Shown: in pieces, positions 1 through 5,841 of the stretch
Position numbering within the stretch: position 1 is the stretch's first letter
Layout of the letters: every line of letters starts with the position of its first letter
Source of the DNA: an uncultured Opitutia bacterium
GTDB lineage: Bacteria > Verrucomicrobiota > Verrucomicrobiia > Opitutales > UBA953
Assembly (NCBI GenBank): GCA_903840355.1
Contig: CAIMFJ010000004.1
Span: 1-64,000 of the forward strand
DNA length: 64,000 bases
Direction of reading: 5' to 3'
Translations under genes and position numbers: made by a program
Notes under the pieces: model-generated
What the model saw: only the letters and a program-made list of their open reading frames with translations
What the model was told of the DNA's origin: nothing
The model's database searches: none

Positions 1-53
1 TGCTCGCGGATGGCCTTAATCTGGGCCTCCTTTGTGTGCCGTTTTTTGCTCAT
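1..53 (-). CDS. N-terminal fragment of a basic protein, possibly a transposase (partial)
   Basis: An ATG at 53-51 on the minus strand opens a frame that runs off the left edge after 17 codons. The start reads MSKKRHTKEAQ..., lysine/arginine-rich, and resembles the opening of IS3-type OrfA proteins, but this is far too short to assign a family. The neighbouring gene appears truncated exactly where this segment approaches it, which fits a mobile element. It could equally be any small basic protein. Confidence 0.3.
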   Translation of the reverse strand, partial: MSKKRHTKEAQIKAIRE

Positions 54-130
54 TATTGTGGTGTTTATGGGGGTGGTTTGGTGGTTGGGCAACCCCCCGA
101 GTAACATTTCAACTGGCCCCATTTAGCGTG
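54..130. other. possible terminal region of a mobile element
   Basis: The DUF2075-like frame stops matching its family right after the residues TRG, at about base 132, and continues with an unrelated tail (DRVTLNGAS) to a stop at 109. The next bases contain a small GGGG...CCCC-type inverted repeat (about 70-99) and lead to the start codon at 53. This is what an insertion sequence end would look like, but no matching second end lies in the window, so it is an inference. Confidence 0.25.
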
Positions 131-1416
131 ACCCGATCACCACGCGTAAGCAAAACACGGTAAGTATTCTTAACAAGATCAACAAACTTCTCTTTTGAAC
201 GTTTAACAACTGAATCACATGATTCTTCTTTTACGCCTACCCAGCCCTGCCCATTGCGATATATCAGATCTTTACCTATTATTACTCCAATATAATCAAA
301 TTCAAATCCTTGGGCGGTATAAACACAGCCAATCTGGCCAATGCCATTAGGATCATAAGCCCATAATGCAGCAGGCGGTATTCCCTTAGCTAAGCGTGTT
401 GCGCCAGGTTTAGCGTCCCAAGGGCGCTTCCAATCTCCTATTACTACGTCATCAAGAAGATTCCCTGAAACATCTGGGTCAGACCATTTCCAGCAAAAAC
501 CGGCTGCCATTCTAGCCTTAGCCTTCTCACCAACTTTGGTATGAATTGCTTTTTCTAATTCTTCGGGAGTATCAAAGATTTTAAATTCATAAGGGTTTTT
601 TGCCTCCCAAAAATGGTGTGCTGTCTCTTCGATGCCAAGAGTATGATTAATCCAGTTTATAAAAGCATCAGACCCACTACAACGGAACTGAGATTTTAGC
701 GTATAATCAAAAAGTCGAATCCCGCGAAGGCCGCCAGCCTTTTCGTGGGTGTCCATGCCGGCATTATAAATGAGAAATTTTATGCCTTCTAAATGCTTGA
801 GGGCTAAAGCTACCTGCGGGAGGTAATCTTCCGAATCGTCCACGGTTTGATAAAAATGACGCTCAGGGTACTTGGGCTTCCAATCATCAAAGGGACTGAC
901 GGTGACATCGGCTAAGTAGACTTGGGGGTGATCTTGAAGGATATCAAACGTGCCCCCTCCTGCATGGGCATCTAAATCTAAGATGCCGACTTTAGCGACG
1001 TGCTGCAAAGCCTCGAGTGCCGCCAAGGCGAGTCCGTTGAAATGACAAAATCCGCTGCCGTAATCACGTCCGGCATGATGCAAGCCACTGGAAAGACTGC
1101 CAGAACGTCCATGCTTCATCGCTGCGCCGACGGCATCGCGCATCCCACCTGTCGAAGCTAGAATACTGGCTAGGAGTGCTTGGGACCAGGGTCCCGAAGC
1201 TAAACGCGCCTTCTTGTTTTCAAAGGTCTTGGTGATGTAGGCCTCACTGTGAATGAGTTGTAATTCTTCCCGCGTAACGGGACGAGGAGCCTGCAAGGTG
1301 ACATCTCCCGCTAGACCGGCCTTAATGAAATCAGCAACGTGACGAGACTTGGTAACGGTCTCCAAACTACCCCGCACGGCATACGCTGCACTGTAATAAA
1401 CAATGAGTGGCATCAT
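109..1416 (-). CDS. chimera: histone-deacetylase-like N-terminus joined to DUF2075 helicase-like C-terminus
   Basis: About 435 residues from the ATG at 1416; the frame could also be read from a TTG at 1452, but family members begin near MPLIVYYS. Residues 1 to about 233 look like the bacterial histone deacetylase/acetylpolyamine amidohydrolase family: a GLHHAG histidine pair (about 113-114), zinc ligands in LDLDAH (147-151) and NAGMD (222). From about residue 243 the protein instead matches the C-terminal part of DUF2075 (Schlafen group 3-like helicases): SQFRCSGSD, then VYTAQGFEFDYIGVIIG, then NTYRVLLTRG. The deacetylase lacks its last third with the catalytic tyrosine, and the helicase part lacks its Walker A region. 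The junction near base 720 coincides with a shift to more AT-rich DNA. Neither half is expected to be catalytically complete; it is either a deletion-born pseudogene or a real fusion. Confidence 0.7.
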   Translation of the reverse strand: MMPLIVYYSAAYAVRGSLETVTKSRHVADFIKAGLAGDVTLQAPRPVTREELQLIHSEAYITKTFENKKARLASGPWSQALLASILASTGGMRDAVGAAMKHGRSGSLSSGLHHAGRDYGSGFCHFNGLALAALEALQHVAKVGILDLDAHAGGGTFDILQDHPQVYLADVTVSPFDDWKPKYPERHFYQTVDDSEDYLPQVALALKHLEGIKFLIYNAGMDTHEKAGGLRGIRLFDYTLKSQFRCSGSDAFINWINHTLGIEETAHHFWEAKNPYEFKIFDTPEELEKAIHTKVGEKAKARMAAGFCWKWSDPDVSGNLLDDVVIGDWKRPWDAKPGATRLAKGIPPAALWAYDPNGIGQIGCVYTAQGFEFDYIGVIIGKDLIYRNGQGWVGVKEESCDSVVKRSKEKFVDLVKNTYRVLLTRGDRVTLNGAS

Positions 1417-1517: not shown

Positions 1518-2945
1518 ATGGCCATGCGCTTACCCCTGCTGGCTCTGGCTTTAAACCTAACTTTCTTGGCGGCTGAAACCGTACCAGCCGAAGTGCTGGT
1601 TCACTTAGATCAGCGAGGGGCAACGCTGCCTGCTGACTTCATCGGGTTGAGTACGGAAAAGAAGTTGATGAATCGGGATTGTTTCCAGGGACAGAACCAA
1701 CAGCTGATTGCACTGTATCGGACCTTGGGAACTGGGGTGCTGCGTATCGGAGCCAACAACGTGGATTCGACGGCGTTTAAGCGCGAAGGGTTTTCGCCCG
1801 CAGAAACGATGTTGGAAAATCATTACGTAACAGAGCCGCGGACGATTGGTCCAGCTTCCGTCGACGCGTTCTTCGAGTTCGCCCGTGCAACGGGTTGGAA
1901 AGTCATCTACGGCGTGAACTTGGGTTCGAAGGATCCGGCGATGTCAGCCGACGAAGCGGATTACGCCTGGAAGGTGGGGGCAAAAGAAATCCTCGCCGTC
2001 GAAATCGGCAATGAGCCCAACCTTTATCCGAAAAGTCCAACGCGCGAAGGGATTCGTCCGGGCAATTGGGGCTACGCCGATTACAAGGCCGAGTTCACGG
2101 CTGTAGCTGATGCGATTCGAGCCAAGAACCCACAAATCCCTCTCACGGGTCCCGCTGTCACCAAGGGCACGAAGTGGATGCCGCTCTTCATGGCGGATTT
2201 CAAAGACCGCATCGTGCTGGCGACTTCGCACGTCTACCCACTCTCCGCCAAGCAAGCAGACCCTCAACATCAACGTTTCACCTCGGTGGAAAAACTCTTG
2301 GGCGAGAAATACCCCGACGACTGGATTATCAAACTCCACGACGCCCAAGCCGTGGGCGTGCCTTACCGAATCGACGAGTGTAACACCGCGTCCGATGGCG
2401 GTAAACGTGGTGTGAGCGATGCGTTTGCGTCCACGTTGTGGTCGATTGACTTCATGTTCGACGTCGCCCTCGCCGGCGGCCAAGGGGTGAATTTTCACGG
2501 GAGCTTTACGCCCAACAATTATTCGGCGATTGTGTTTGAAAAGAAAACCCGTCGCTACGTTCCCGCTCCCCTTTATTACGGACTGCTCTTCTTCAATCGC
2601 GCCGCCCAAGGTCAACTGGTTGACGTAACCACCAAGTCAGACGCAAATTTCATCGCGCGCGGCACGGTGGATAAAGCCGGCAAGTTGCGTTTGGTTTTAT
2701 TAAACAAAGATTTAAATAAGACCGTGAACGTTCACTTACCGCTGGGCGAAAAGTTCTCTCAGGCCCACGCCTGGCGCTTAGTCGCTCCTAGCGTATCCGC
2801 CACGAGCGGAGTGACTTTTGCGGGGGCAGAAGTCGACGCCACGGGCAACTGGGCGCCTAAAACCATCGAGACGATTCCCGTCGCCGACCACCAAGTGAAT
2901 CTCAGCGTGCCCGCGACGAGTGCCGTCTTATTGATTTTAGAATAA
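1518..2945 (+). CDS. secreted GH79-like glycoside hydrolase
   Basis: 475 residues with a signal peptide (MAMRLPLLALALNLTFLAAE). The body is a TIM-barrel glycosidase resembling family GH79 (beta-glucuronidase/heparanase-like enzymes of clan GH-A). The likely acid/base glutamate is in EIGNEPN (about E166) and the likely nucleophile in YRIDECN (about E287). The C-terminal 100 residues look like the small beta-sandwich typical of the clan (LVLLNKDLNKTVNVHLP). It probably removes a uronic acid or related sugar from a polysaccharide outside the cytoplasm; the substrate cannot be told from sequence. It stands alone, divergent from the chimeric gene and 237 bases before the malonate operon. A weak GAGG lies 13 bases before the start. 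Confidence 0.72.
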   Translation: MAMRLPLLALALNLTFLAAETVPAEVLVHLDQRGATLPADFIGLSTEKKLMNRDCFQGQNQQLIALYRTLGTGVLRIGANNVDSTAFKREGFSPAETMLENHYVTEPRTIGPASVDAFFEFARATGWKVIYGVNLGSKDPAMSADEADYAWKVGAKEILAVEIGNEPNLYPKSPTREGIRPGNWGYADYKAEFTAVADAIRAKNPQIPLTGPAVTKGTKWMPLFMADFKDRIVLATSHVYPLSAKQADPQHQRFTSVEKLLGEKYPDDWIIKLHDAQAVGVPYRIDECNTASDGGKRGVSDAFASTLWSIDFMFDVALAGGQGVNFHGSFTPNNYSAIVFEKKTRRYVPAPLYYGLLFFNRAAQGQLVDVTTKSDANFIARGTVDKAGKLRLVLLNKDLNKTVNVHLPLGEKFSQAHAWRLVAPSVSATSGVTFAGAEVDATGNWAPKTIETIPVADHQVNLSVPATSAVLLILE

Positions 2946-3111: not shown

Positions 3112-3148
3112 ACCCGCCCTGCTTCGAACGTTGCAGTTTGGGGCGGGT
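3112..3148 (+). promoter_or_regulatory. inverted repeat in the madL leader
   Basis: ACCCGCCC at 3112-3119 is the perfect complement of GGGCGGGT at 3141-3148, with a 21-base loop. It ends 34 bases before the madL start. No T-run follows, so it is not a standard terminator; it could be an attenuator, an mRNA stability element or an operator. Confidence 0.35.
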
Positions 3149-3182
3149 GGAATACGACTACGTGCCACACCCTACCCCTGCG

Positions 3183-3566
3183 ATGCCCCTTTACGGAACT
3201 GCCCTCCTCGCTGGTTGCCACTTGCTTGGAATTTTCCTCGGCGAACTCCTCGGCCGCTTGCTCGGCGTGCCCGCCAACGTTGGCGGCGTGGGCATCGCCA
3301 TGCTTCTCCTCATCGCGGTGCGATGGCACGGACATGCCCGCGGGTGGCTCGCTCCCAGATCAGAAGAAGGCGTAAAATATTGGGCCGCGCTTTACATCCC
3401 AGTCGTGATTGCGATGGCCGCCCAACAAAACGTGCTCAAAGCGTTGAGCGGTGGGCCGATGGTGGTGCTGGCGGCGGTATTAGCCGTGCTGGCCTGTACC
3501 AGTATCGCCGCTTGGATTAATCGCCATGAACCCGCGGCAGCGGCTCCCGTTGCCGAAATCTCATAA
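3183..3566 (+). CDS. madL: malonate transporter subunit MadL
   Basis: 127 residues from the ATG at 3183, chosen because MadL proteins begin just before the first membrane segment (here MPLYGTALLAGC); an upstream in-frame start at 3138 would add an unlikely hydrophilic leader. The protein is hydrophobic with about four membrane segments and carries the family stretch LLGVPANVGGVGIAMLLLI. MadL and MadM together form a malonate carrier that is typically cation-coupled. The stop codon directly abuts the madM start. A weak promoter-like pair (TTGGTC at 3082, TTATCA at 3105, 17 bases apart) lies upstream. Confidence 0.85.
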   Translation: MPLYGTALLAGCHLLGIFLGELLGRLLGVPANVGGVGIAMLLLIAVRWHGHARGWLAPRSEEGVKYWAALYIPVVIAMAAQQNVLKALSGGPMVVLAAVLAVLACTSIAAWINRHEPAAAAPVAEIS

Positions 3567-4343
3567 GTGGTGGAAACGCTTTTGCAAAAACTCGCCGTCG
3601 AAAACGGCCTCGTGCTCTCGTTTGCCATCATCGGACTGGTGGTCTTGTTTTCCGAAGTCGTTGCGCGTCAATTAACCAGAGGACGCGTGCAAGGTTCGGC
3701 GTTGGCGATTTTAATTGGTCTGACGTTGGCGTATGTAGGCGGACGACTCACGGGCGGGAATAAAGGGCTCGCCGATGTGAGTTACTTCAGCGGACTGGCT
3801 TTAATGGGCGGCAGTATGTTGCGCGACTTCGCCATCGTCGCCACGGCCTTCGAAGTACATCCCACCGAAGCCAAACGAGCCGGCTGGATGGGCGCAATCG
3901 CCCTAGGCTTGGGCACCATCGTCCCATTTATCATCGGGGTCGGAACGGCTTATGCATTTGGGTATCGAGATGCTATCAGCCTCACCACCATTGGTGCAGG
4001 GACCGTGACTTATATTGTCGGCCCAGTCACTGGCACGGCGATTGGAGCATCTTCCGAAGTCATCACGCTGGCGATTGCGTCCGGAGTTTTTAAAGCCATC
4101 TTAGTGATGGTGACCACGCCGATGCTGGCGAAATTCATGCGCTTGGGCACACCGCGGTCGGCGATGGTCTTTGCCGGACTCGCCGGGACGGTCAGTGGAG
4201 TCTCGGCGGGGCTAGCCGCCACGGATCGCAAACTCGTACCCTATGGCGCGTTAGTCGCGACTTTTCACACCGGGGTCGGCTGCTTAGTCTGCCCTTCGAT
4301 TTTCTTCTTCGTCGTACGTGCCCTCTTCCCTGCTCATTCCTAA
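3567..4343 (+). CDS. madM: malonate transporter subunit MadM
   Basis: 258 residues, starting at GTG immediately after the madL stop (a second GTG follows at 3570). It is a very hydrophobic protein with seven or more membrane segments and the MadM-like stretches GLALMGGSMLRDFAIVATAF and GPVTGTAIGASSEVITLAIA. It forms the larger half of the malonate carrier with MadL. The last 26 bases overlap the start of matB, which points to translational coupling. The arrangement madL-madM-matB lets imported malonate be turned directly into malonyl-CoA. Confidence 0.87.
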   Translation: MVETLLQKLAVENGLVLSFAIIGLVVLFSEVVARQLTRGRVQGSALAILIGLTLAYVGGRLTGGNKGLADVSYFSGLALMGGSMLRDFAIVATAFEVHPTEAKRAGWMGAIALGLGTIVPFIIGVGTAYAFGYRDAISLTTIGAGTVTYIVGPVTGTAIGASSEVITLAIASGVFKAILVMVTTPMLAKFMRLGTPRSAMVFAGLAGTVSGVSAGLAATDRKLVPYGALVATFHTGVGCLVCPSIFFFVVRALFPAHS

Positions 4344-5841
4344 CGCCGTGCCGGAACTTCCGCTAATCCAACGTGCCCAACAACACGCGGGCTCCATTGC
4401 TTTTCAAACTCCAGAGAAAAGCACCACCTACCAAGCACTGCTCGATCAATCTGCCCAATTCGCCAGCGCCCTCTTGCAAGGCGCAGCCGATTTACAGGAA
4501 GCACGCGTCGCCCTCCTCGCCGCCGCCGGGCCTACTTACGTCGCTGCCCAATGGGGCATTTGGCGCGCAGGAGCGATCAAAGTCCCCATCTGTCTGACGG
4601 CCACGGAACCCGAGTGGGAATATGCCCTCACCGATAGTGGCGCCTCGGTTGTCATGGCCGAGGGAACGAGTGTTAAGAAAATCGCCCCACTCTGTCAGCG
4701 ACTGGGCTTACGCCTCATCAACCTCGATGACGTGCGGGCGCCCCTTCAACCCTTGCCGGCACTCACTCCCGCCCGTCGGGCGATGATTTTATACACCAGC
4801 GGCACGACGAGTAAACCCAAGGGCGTGGTCACGACGCATGCTCACATCACGGCGCAGATTGAGAGCTTGATTCAAGCTTGGGCGTGGCAAAGCACCGACC
4901 GCATCCCGCTCTTTTTACCCATGCACCATATCCATGGGATTATCAACGTCACGAGCTGTGCCTTATGGGCGGGGGCGGTGATTGAACCCTTTACGAAGTT
5001 CGACCAACCCGCGATTCTCGAACGCGTTAAGGCCCGAGCTTACACGCTGTTCATGGCCGTGCCGACGATTTACGTTAAACTCATCCAAGCCTTGGAAAGT
5101 GCCGAGCCAGCGGAACGCCAAGCCATCGTCGCAGGCTTTGCCGCCATGCGCTTAATGGTGTCGGGCTCGGCCGCTTTACCTGCGAGTGTGCATGAACAAT
5201 GGACTGCTTTGACTGGGCAGAAATTACTCGAACGTTATGGAATGACAGAAATCGGCATGGCGATTTCGAATCCCTTGCACGGCGAACGTCGCCCGGGAGC
5301 CGTCGGACAACCCTTGCCCGGCGTCGAAATTCGTCTCAAAGCGGAGACCGGTGAAATCATCACCGCCGAGCACACTCCAGGAGAAATCCAAGTCCGCGGT
5401 CCCAATGTTTTTCGAGAATACTGGGGCAAGCCCGAGGCGACGGCGGAATCATTTGACCAAGATGGCTGGTATCGCACCGGCGACATGGCCGTGCGCGAAA
5501 CGGGCTATTACCGCATTATGGGACGACTCTCCGTCGATATTATTAAAAGCGGCGGCTACAAACTCTCTGCCCTCGAAATCGAAGCGGCCTTACTGGATCA
5601 CCCCGACATTGCCGAATGTGCCGTGATTGGCATGCCGGATGACACGTGGGGCGAAGCCGTGAGCGCGGCGGTCGTCACGCGCCCAGGAACTGACCTCACT
5701 TTAGCCGCGTTGCGCGAGTGGTCTAAAACCCGACTCTCGGTTTACAAAGTGCCGCAACGCCTCGCCGTAGTCAAAGAACTCCCCCGCAATGCGATGGGCA
5801 AAGTGACCAAACCCGCCGTGCGAAGTTTATTTAATTCCTAA
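4318..5841 (+). CDS. matB: malonyl-CoA synthetase (MatB-like acyl-CoA ligase)
   Basis: 507 residues, the usual length of MatB. It belongs to the ANL adenylating superfamily: phosphate-binding loop YTSGTTSKPKG (about 158-168), RYGMTEIGMA, the hinge region GRLSVDIIKSGGYKLSALEIE near the C-terminus, and the catalytic lysine region PRNAMGKVTK. The stretch PMHHIHGIINV is typical of malonyl-CoA synthetases. It makes malonyl-CoA from malonate, CoA and ATP. The assignment is supported by overlap with the malonate carrier gene. The start is GTG at 4318 inside madM; a later GTG at 4348 is possible. No malonate decarboxylase genes are present, so malonyl-CoA is probably used for fatty acid synthesis or decarboxylated elsewhere. 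Confidence 0.85.
   Translation: MPSSLLIPNAVPELPLIQRAQQHAGSIAFQTPEKSTTYQALLDQSAQFASALLQGAADLQEARVALLAAAGPTYVAAQWGIWRAGAIKVPICLTATEPEWEYALTDSGASVVMAEGTSVKKIAPLCQRLGLRLINLDDVRAPLQPLPALTPARRAMILYTSGTTSKPKGVVTTHAHITAQIESLIQAWAWQSTDRIPLFLPMHHIHGIINVTSCALWAGAVIEPFTKFDQPAILERVKARAYTLFMAVPTIYVKLIQALESAEPAERQAIVAGFAAMRLMVSGSAALPASVHEQWTALTGQKLLERYGMTEIGMAISNPLHGERRPGAVGQPLPGVEIRLKAETGEIITAEHTPGEIQVRGPNVFREYWGKPEATAESFDQDGWYRTGDMAVRETGYYRIMGRLSVDIIKSGGYKLSALEIEAALLDHPDIAECAVIGMPDDTWGEAVSAAVVTRPGTDLTLAALREWSKTRLSVYKVPQRLAVVKELPRNAMGKVTKPAVRSLFNS

Follow-up and report, generated by a model that had tools for sequence, protein, structure and literature searches.

The window (the whole stretch of 64,000 nucleotides analysed here) starts at base 1 of a contig of 569,117 bases (C4), in a genome assembly of 2.27 Mb in 8 contigs that is 99.27% complete, and the contig itself begins inside an insertion sequence (IS). 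A single open frame of 435 codons plus stop runs into the tip of this IS (Table 1), and an alternative TTG start would lengthen it to position 1452. It consists of residues 1-233 of a histone deacetylase (HDAC) family protein, followed by 195-196 residues or so from the inside of a helicase and about nine codons of IS sequence. The start region is intact, neither a stop codon nor a frameshift interrupts the frame, and the reading is kept across the join. The sequence-only reading had described a deacetylase front with zinc ligands and a DUF2075 tail in one frame, and Pfam recovers both: Hist_deacetyl (PF00850) with 91.3 bits (cut-off 27.9 bits) over residues 26-196 and profile positions 10-193 of 298, and SLFN-g3_helicase (PF09848, formerly DUF2075) with 172.4 bits (cut-off 24 bits) over residues 235-427 and profile positions 153-345 of 354. 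Both matches are far above chance, and each half is thus a genuine but incomplete member of its family. The drop in GC noticed at the join is likewise present, with values of 0.39-0.48 for the helicase part as against 0.47-0.59 over most of the deacetylase sequence. No family was assigned to either half in an NCBIfam search, and a literature search found DUF2075 named only in passing and no paper that contained every term of a combined query. Upstream, the divergent gene at window 1518-2945 has a GH79 C-terminal beta domain and likely encodes a secreted glycoside hydrolase; in those congener loci that were compared, the deacetylase does not have this gene in its vicinity. Further on, at window 3138-5841, MadL, MadM and an acyl-CoA synthetase-like AMP-binding enzyme follow in a row as an operon for malonate uptake and activation.

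Table 1. Positions of the chimeric frame, its parts and related features in the window (contig C4) and on other contigs of the same genome (contig name given before the position)
Feature	Position	Strand	Basis or remark
Chimeric open reading frame	109..1416	-	ATG at 1416, stop at 109-111; Pfam match to both halves
Deacetylase-derived part, residues 1-233 of a ~290-aa HDAC-family protein	718..1416	-	Congener alignment, Pfam PF00850
Join, codons GGG ATT (Gly-Ile)	718..723	-	Codon alignment with intact deacetylases and helicases
Internal piece of DUF2075 / SLFN-g3 helicase, cut at both ends	140..723	-	85-86% identity to L002 and L031
Left end of IS3-family element, tip TGATCGGG at 139, running off the contig start	1..139	-	Same tip at 5 other contig ends
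Start of first IS transposase frame (MSKKRHTKEAQIKAIRE...), truncated at base 1 of the contig	1..53	-	Matches 111-aa frame of intact copy
GYF-domain gene	C7:69950-71224		
purA	C7:74956-76497		
Hairpin repeat, example sites	C3:11987-38257, C8:277494-287421, C2:52200-53365		Loci L119, L123, L126

The deacetylase half aligns with its congeners up to the join at identities of up to 70%, and these share the same layout up to that point. Its zinc ligands (Asp-X-His and a later Asp) are present in DLDAH and YNAGMD, which correspond in the alignment to DSDVH and YDAGVD of the solved deacetylase 9gkv, and 82 of the 83 positions that are invariant among 35 congeners are retained. The congener proteins are single-domain bacterial deacetylases of an unextended length of about 290-300 aa that run some 45-60 residues beyond the join point (e.g. 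GITKDIIRKRERLVADWARRRKIPHLFALAGGYKWGGLSLAQIAELHLETVQAFAQP), and an intact one covers profile positions 11-285 of PF00850 as compared to 10-193 in the chimera. About 56 C-terminal residues are thus gone, among them the tyrosine of the motif LAGGY(K/Q/R/T)W, which lies past the join point in every congener whose C-terminus is available. Since none of the congener C-terminal tail is present in the chimera, the catalytic tyrosine loop is absent. In the arginase/deacetylase fold the last strand forms the middle of the sheet, and judging from this general architecture the remaining part probably fails to fold normally.

The chimera also differs from other deacetylases of the genus in not adjoining purA. 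In nearly all congeners with enough flanking sequence the gene is next to purA and/or a GYF-domain gene, usually with purA and a small gene of about 110 aa on one side and the GYF-domain gene on the other. In the genome studied here the purA site is without a deacetylase, and the GYF-domain gene and the small gene overlap by 4 bases. A PF00850 profile search of the whole genome gave no match besides the chimera. Given the empty purA site and the lack of any other match, no deacetylase remains besides the truncated one at the beginning of C4, and loss of the deacetylase from this organism is most likely. The tree of the deacetylase part and that of purA agree poorly on where the organism is placed, a difference that is not significant, and a topology constrained to keep the window sequence with its purA neighbours survives the AU test (p-AU 0.096). 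The deacetylase half may therefore be the relocated native copy or an acquisition from a relative within the genus; the tree favours neither.

The helicase half has its closest relatives in two full proteins of 621 aa from the same genus (G017 = L002; G201 = L031/L153), with 85-86% identity over about 195 residues. The piece corresponds to residues ~404-598 of the 621-aa relative, and it retains all 39 positions of the C-terminal helicase domain at which 95% or more of 82 relatives agree. What distinguishes it from the intact DUF2075 / SLFN-g3 helicases is the loss of the 401 N-terminal residues, which carry Walker A and B, and of the last 23 residues. Neither GGPGTGKS (Walker A) nor VMVCDEAH (Walker B region) of the intact relative occurs in the chimera, where the match begins only at profile position 153. 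The absence of both the deacetylase tyrosine and the helicase Walker A, which had been proposed from the window alone, is thereby confirmed in comparison with intact proteins. The missing N-terminal 401 residues were not found anywhere in the whole genome, whose two other PF09848 matches are both below the cut-off, and the last 23 residues (MKGCYVYFMDEETRKFFESRITK) were absent from all 16 contig ends. Genes for HNH and GIY-YIG nuclease-like proteins and a Y1 transposase neighbour the helicase in G201, and the intact helicase protein scores against candidate defence models; it looks like a gene of an accessory island.

The two parents meet at window 723-718, in agreement with the join that had been placed near base 720. 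The codons at this site are mostly GGC ATC or GGC ATT in intact deacetylases and GGC ATT CGC in intact helicases, i.e. both families encode Gly-Ile in the same frame, and only about 6 bp are common to the two. Short shared stretches of this kind are used by illegitimate recombination. Because both parents encode Gly-Ile there in the same frame, selection need not be invoked to explain why the join preserved the reading.

At its other end, the chimeric frame leaves the helicase piece at LLTRG and terminates with about nine IS codons (DRVTLNGAS). The left end of one IS3-family element is where six contig ends (on C1, C3, C4, C6 and C8) break off, and in the five besides the window the left-end sequence is found from TGATCGGGTCACGC onward with unrelated flanks. 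The IS is therefore present in several copies, at which the assembly was interrupted again and again. In G021, another genome of the genus, a full-length relative of the element encodes HTH_Tnp_1 in a frame of 111 aa and rve integrase-core (DDE) domains in one of 273 aa; it ends in CCCGATCA and possesses inverted terminal repeats of the type TG...CA. The first 139 bp of our contig are 96% identical to this copy, and the element fits the IS3 family by the orfA and orfB of the G021 copy; the contig contains the left end only. The bin contains three right ends versus six left ends of the IS, and some IS-flanked sequence or small contigs must hence be missing from it. None of the three right ends available matches the left end at window 139 in a search for target-site repeats.

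A second type of repeat was observed elsewhere in the genome. About 75 pattern matches, a few of them overlapping, were found to a 27-base hairpin repeat starting with GGTAGGGA (e.g. GGTAGGGACGACATTACCATGTCGTCC), many of them in clusters, and a reversed-pattern control gave 0 matches. The repeat is present on contigs C1, C2, C3, C5, C6 and C8, with essentially none in the window. One Y1_Tnp gene (IS200/RAYT-like) at C2:52701-52883 has repeat copies on either side, and together they look like a REP/RAYT system.

Taken together, the chimera is very probably a recent and real rearrangement scar, a gene wreck that persists as non-functional debris in one genome. Both parents are truncated, the native locus has been emptied, and a mobile element lies at the border. 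We infer the following course. The single HDAC-family deacetylase gene would have moved away from its conserved site next to purA, with loss of the ~56 codons at its end, and illegitimate recombination at the common Gly-Ile coding stretch may have joined it to an internal stretch of an accessory DUF2075 helicase gene. The IS3-family element would have inserted into the helicase at a point 23 codons short of its end, either before or after the join, and left a frame that now ends in the IS. The product, if made at all, would have neither the tyrosine loop of the deacetylase nor the ATP-binding half of the helicase, and most likely does nothing. The unbroken frame through the join, free of stops and frameshifts, counts against this reading. 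No decay is seen in either half, and a single genome does not allow changes that preceded the join to be told from later ones; the conserved residues retained (82/83 and 39/39) are what is expected of a young scar, although selection on the chimera would retain the same residues. The far side of the IS lies outside the assembly, which therefore covers the rearrangement in part. Chimeric pseudogenes that arise from deletion or rearrangement beside ISs offer a close parallel, with two truncated genes, a short common sequence at the join, an IS at the border and occurrence in a single genome, except that the join here happens to remain in frame. Among the origins initially considered, the neutral deletion product is the one that the evidence favours, with the refinement that the event was more than a simple deletion between neighbouring genes: an IS inserted and the deacetylase changed its place as well.

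The main alternative is an artefact of assembly or library preparation, in which chimeric reads joined pieces from different places, or from different organisms of the metagenome, near a contig end. Such an origin could be suspected from the location of the join, at a distance of only 0.7 kb from the beginning of the contig and the repeat found there, as well as from the unlike GC of the halves, the position of the deacetylase away from its usual place and the excess of left over right IS ends with small contigs missing from the bin. However, those contig ends that terminate within the IS have 137-141 bases in common, a length that points to de Bruijn assembly at a k of about 141. The ~6 bp common to both sides of the join are far too little for a misjoin at such a k, and chimeric reads would need to dominate to produce it. 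Leftover halves would be another trace of an artefact, yet the complementary parts were not found, neither the helicase N-terminus in the whole genome nor the deacetylase C-terminus at the 16 contig ends. An assembly join, one of the origins initially considered, is therefore unlikely.

Considerably less probable is a functional two-domain chimera, translated and kept in this lineage, where the catalytically dead deacetylase part would bind or position the C-terminal helicase domain and the protein might act as a binding module, regulator or decoy, e.g. in defence against phages. The in-frame join, the intact start region, the lack of decay in both halves and the scores of intact helicase relatives against candidate defence models would be compatible with this. 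Against it stand the single occurrence, the loss of the C-terminal deacetylase part with the tyrosine loop (and, from general knowledge of the fold, of its mid-sheet last strand), the loss of the entire first RecA-like domain of the helicase, and a tail made of IS sequence. The active fusion that had been put forward is not supported, as the chimera is known from one genome, catalytic parts are lacking in both halves and the frame terminates in the IS.

A conserved yet rare domain architecture shared with relatives is the least probable reading, and no supporting case was found in the order genomes or helicase loci searched: the fusion is absent from the 371 other genomes of the order (372 including its own) and from 57 relatives, matches to the deacetylase across the order that are close enough to align that far stop at the join while close helicase matches begin there, and all 80 helicase loci from a wider genome collection are without a deacetylase in the available flank. 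The exact junction pattern was also not found in viral contigs. The idea of a conserved, undescribed architecture is consequently contradicted in the genomes searched, and the check for the same fusion in related genomes, proposed as a way to refute it, returned no second case in any other genome searched. Stop codons in relatives, considered as a further check, are irrelevant because relatives in the order carry the two parents as separate, full-length and intact genes.

We thus regard the chimera as an ordinary rearrangement scar and not as a new protein architecture. If it did function, it would illustrate how a rearrangement associated with an IS can give birth to a gene. As a scar, it cautions that an in-frame fusion scoring well against two Pfam families can be debris. 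Automatic annotation would list a 'deacetylase-helicase' protein here, and with it a deacetylase-positive genome, in an organism where the deacetylase has probably been lost.
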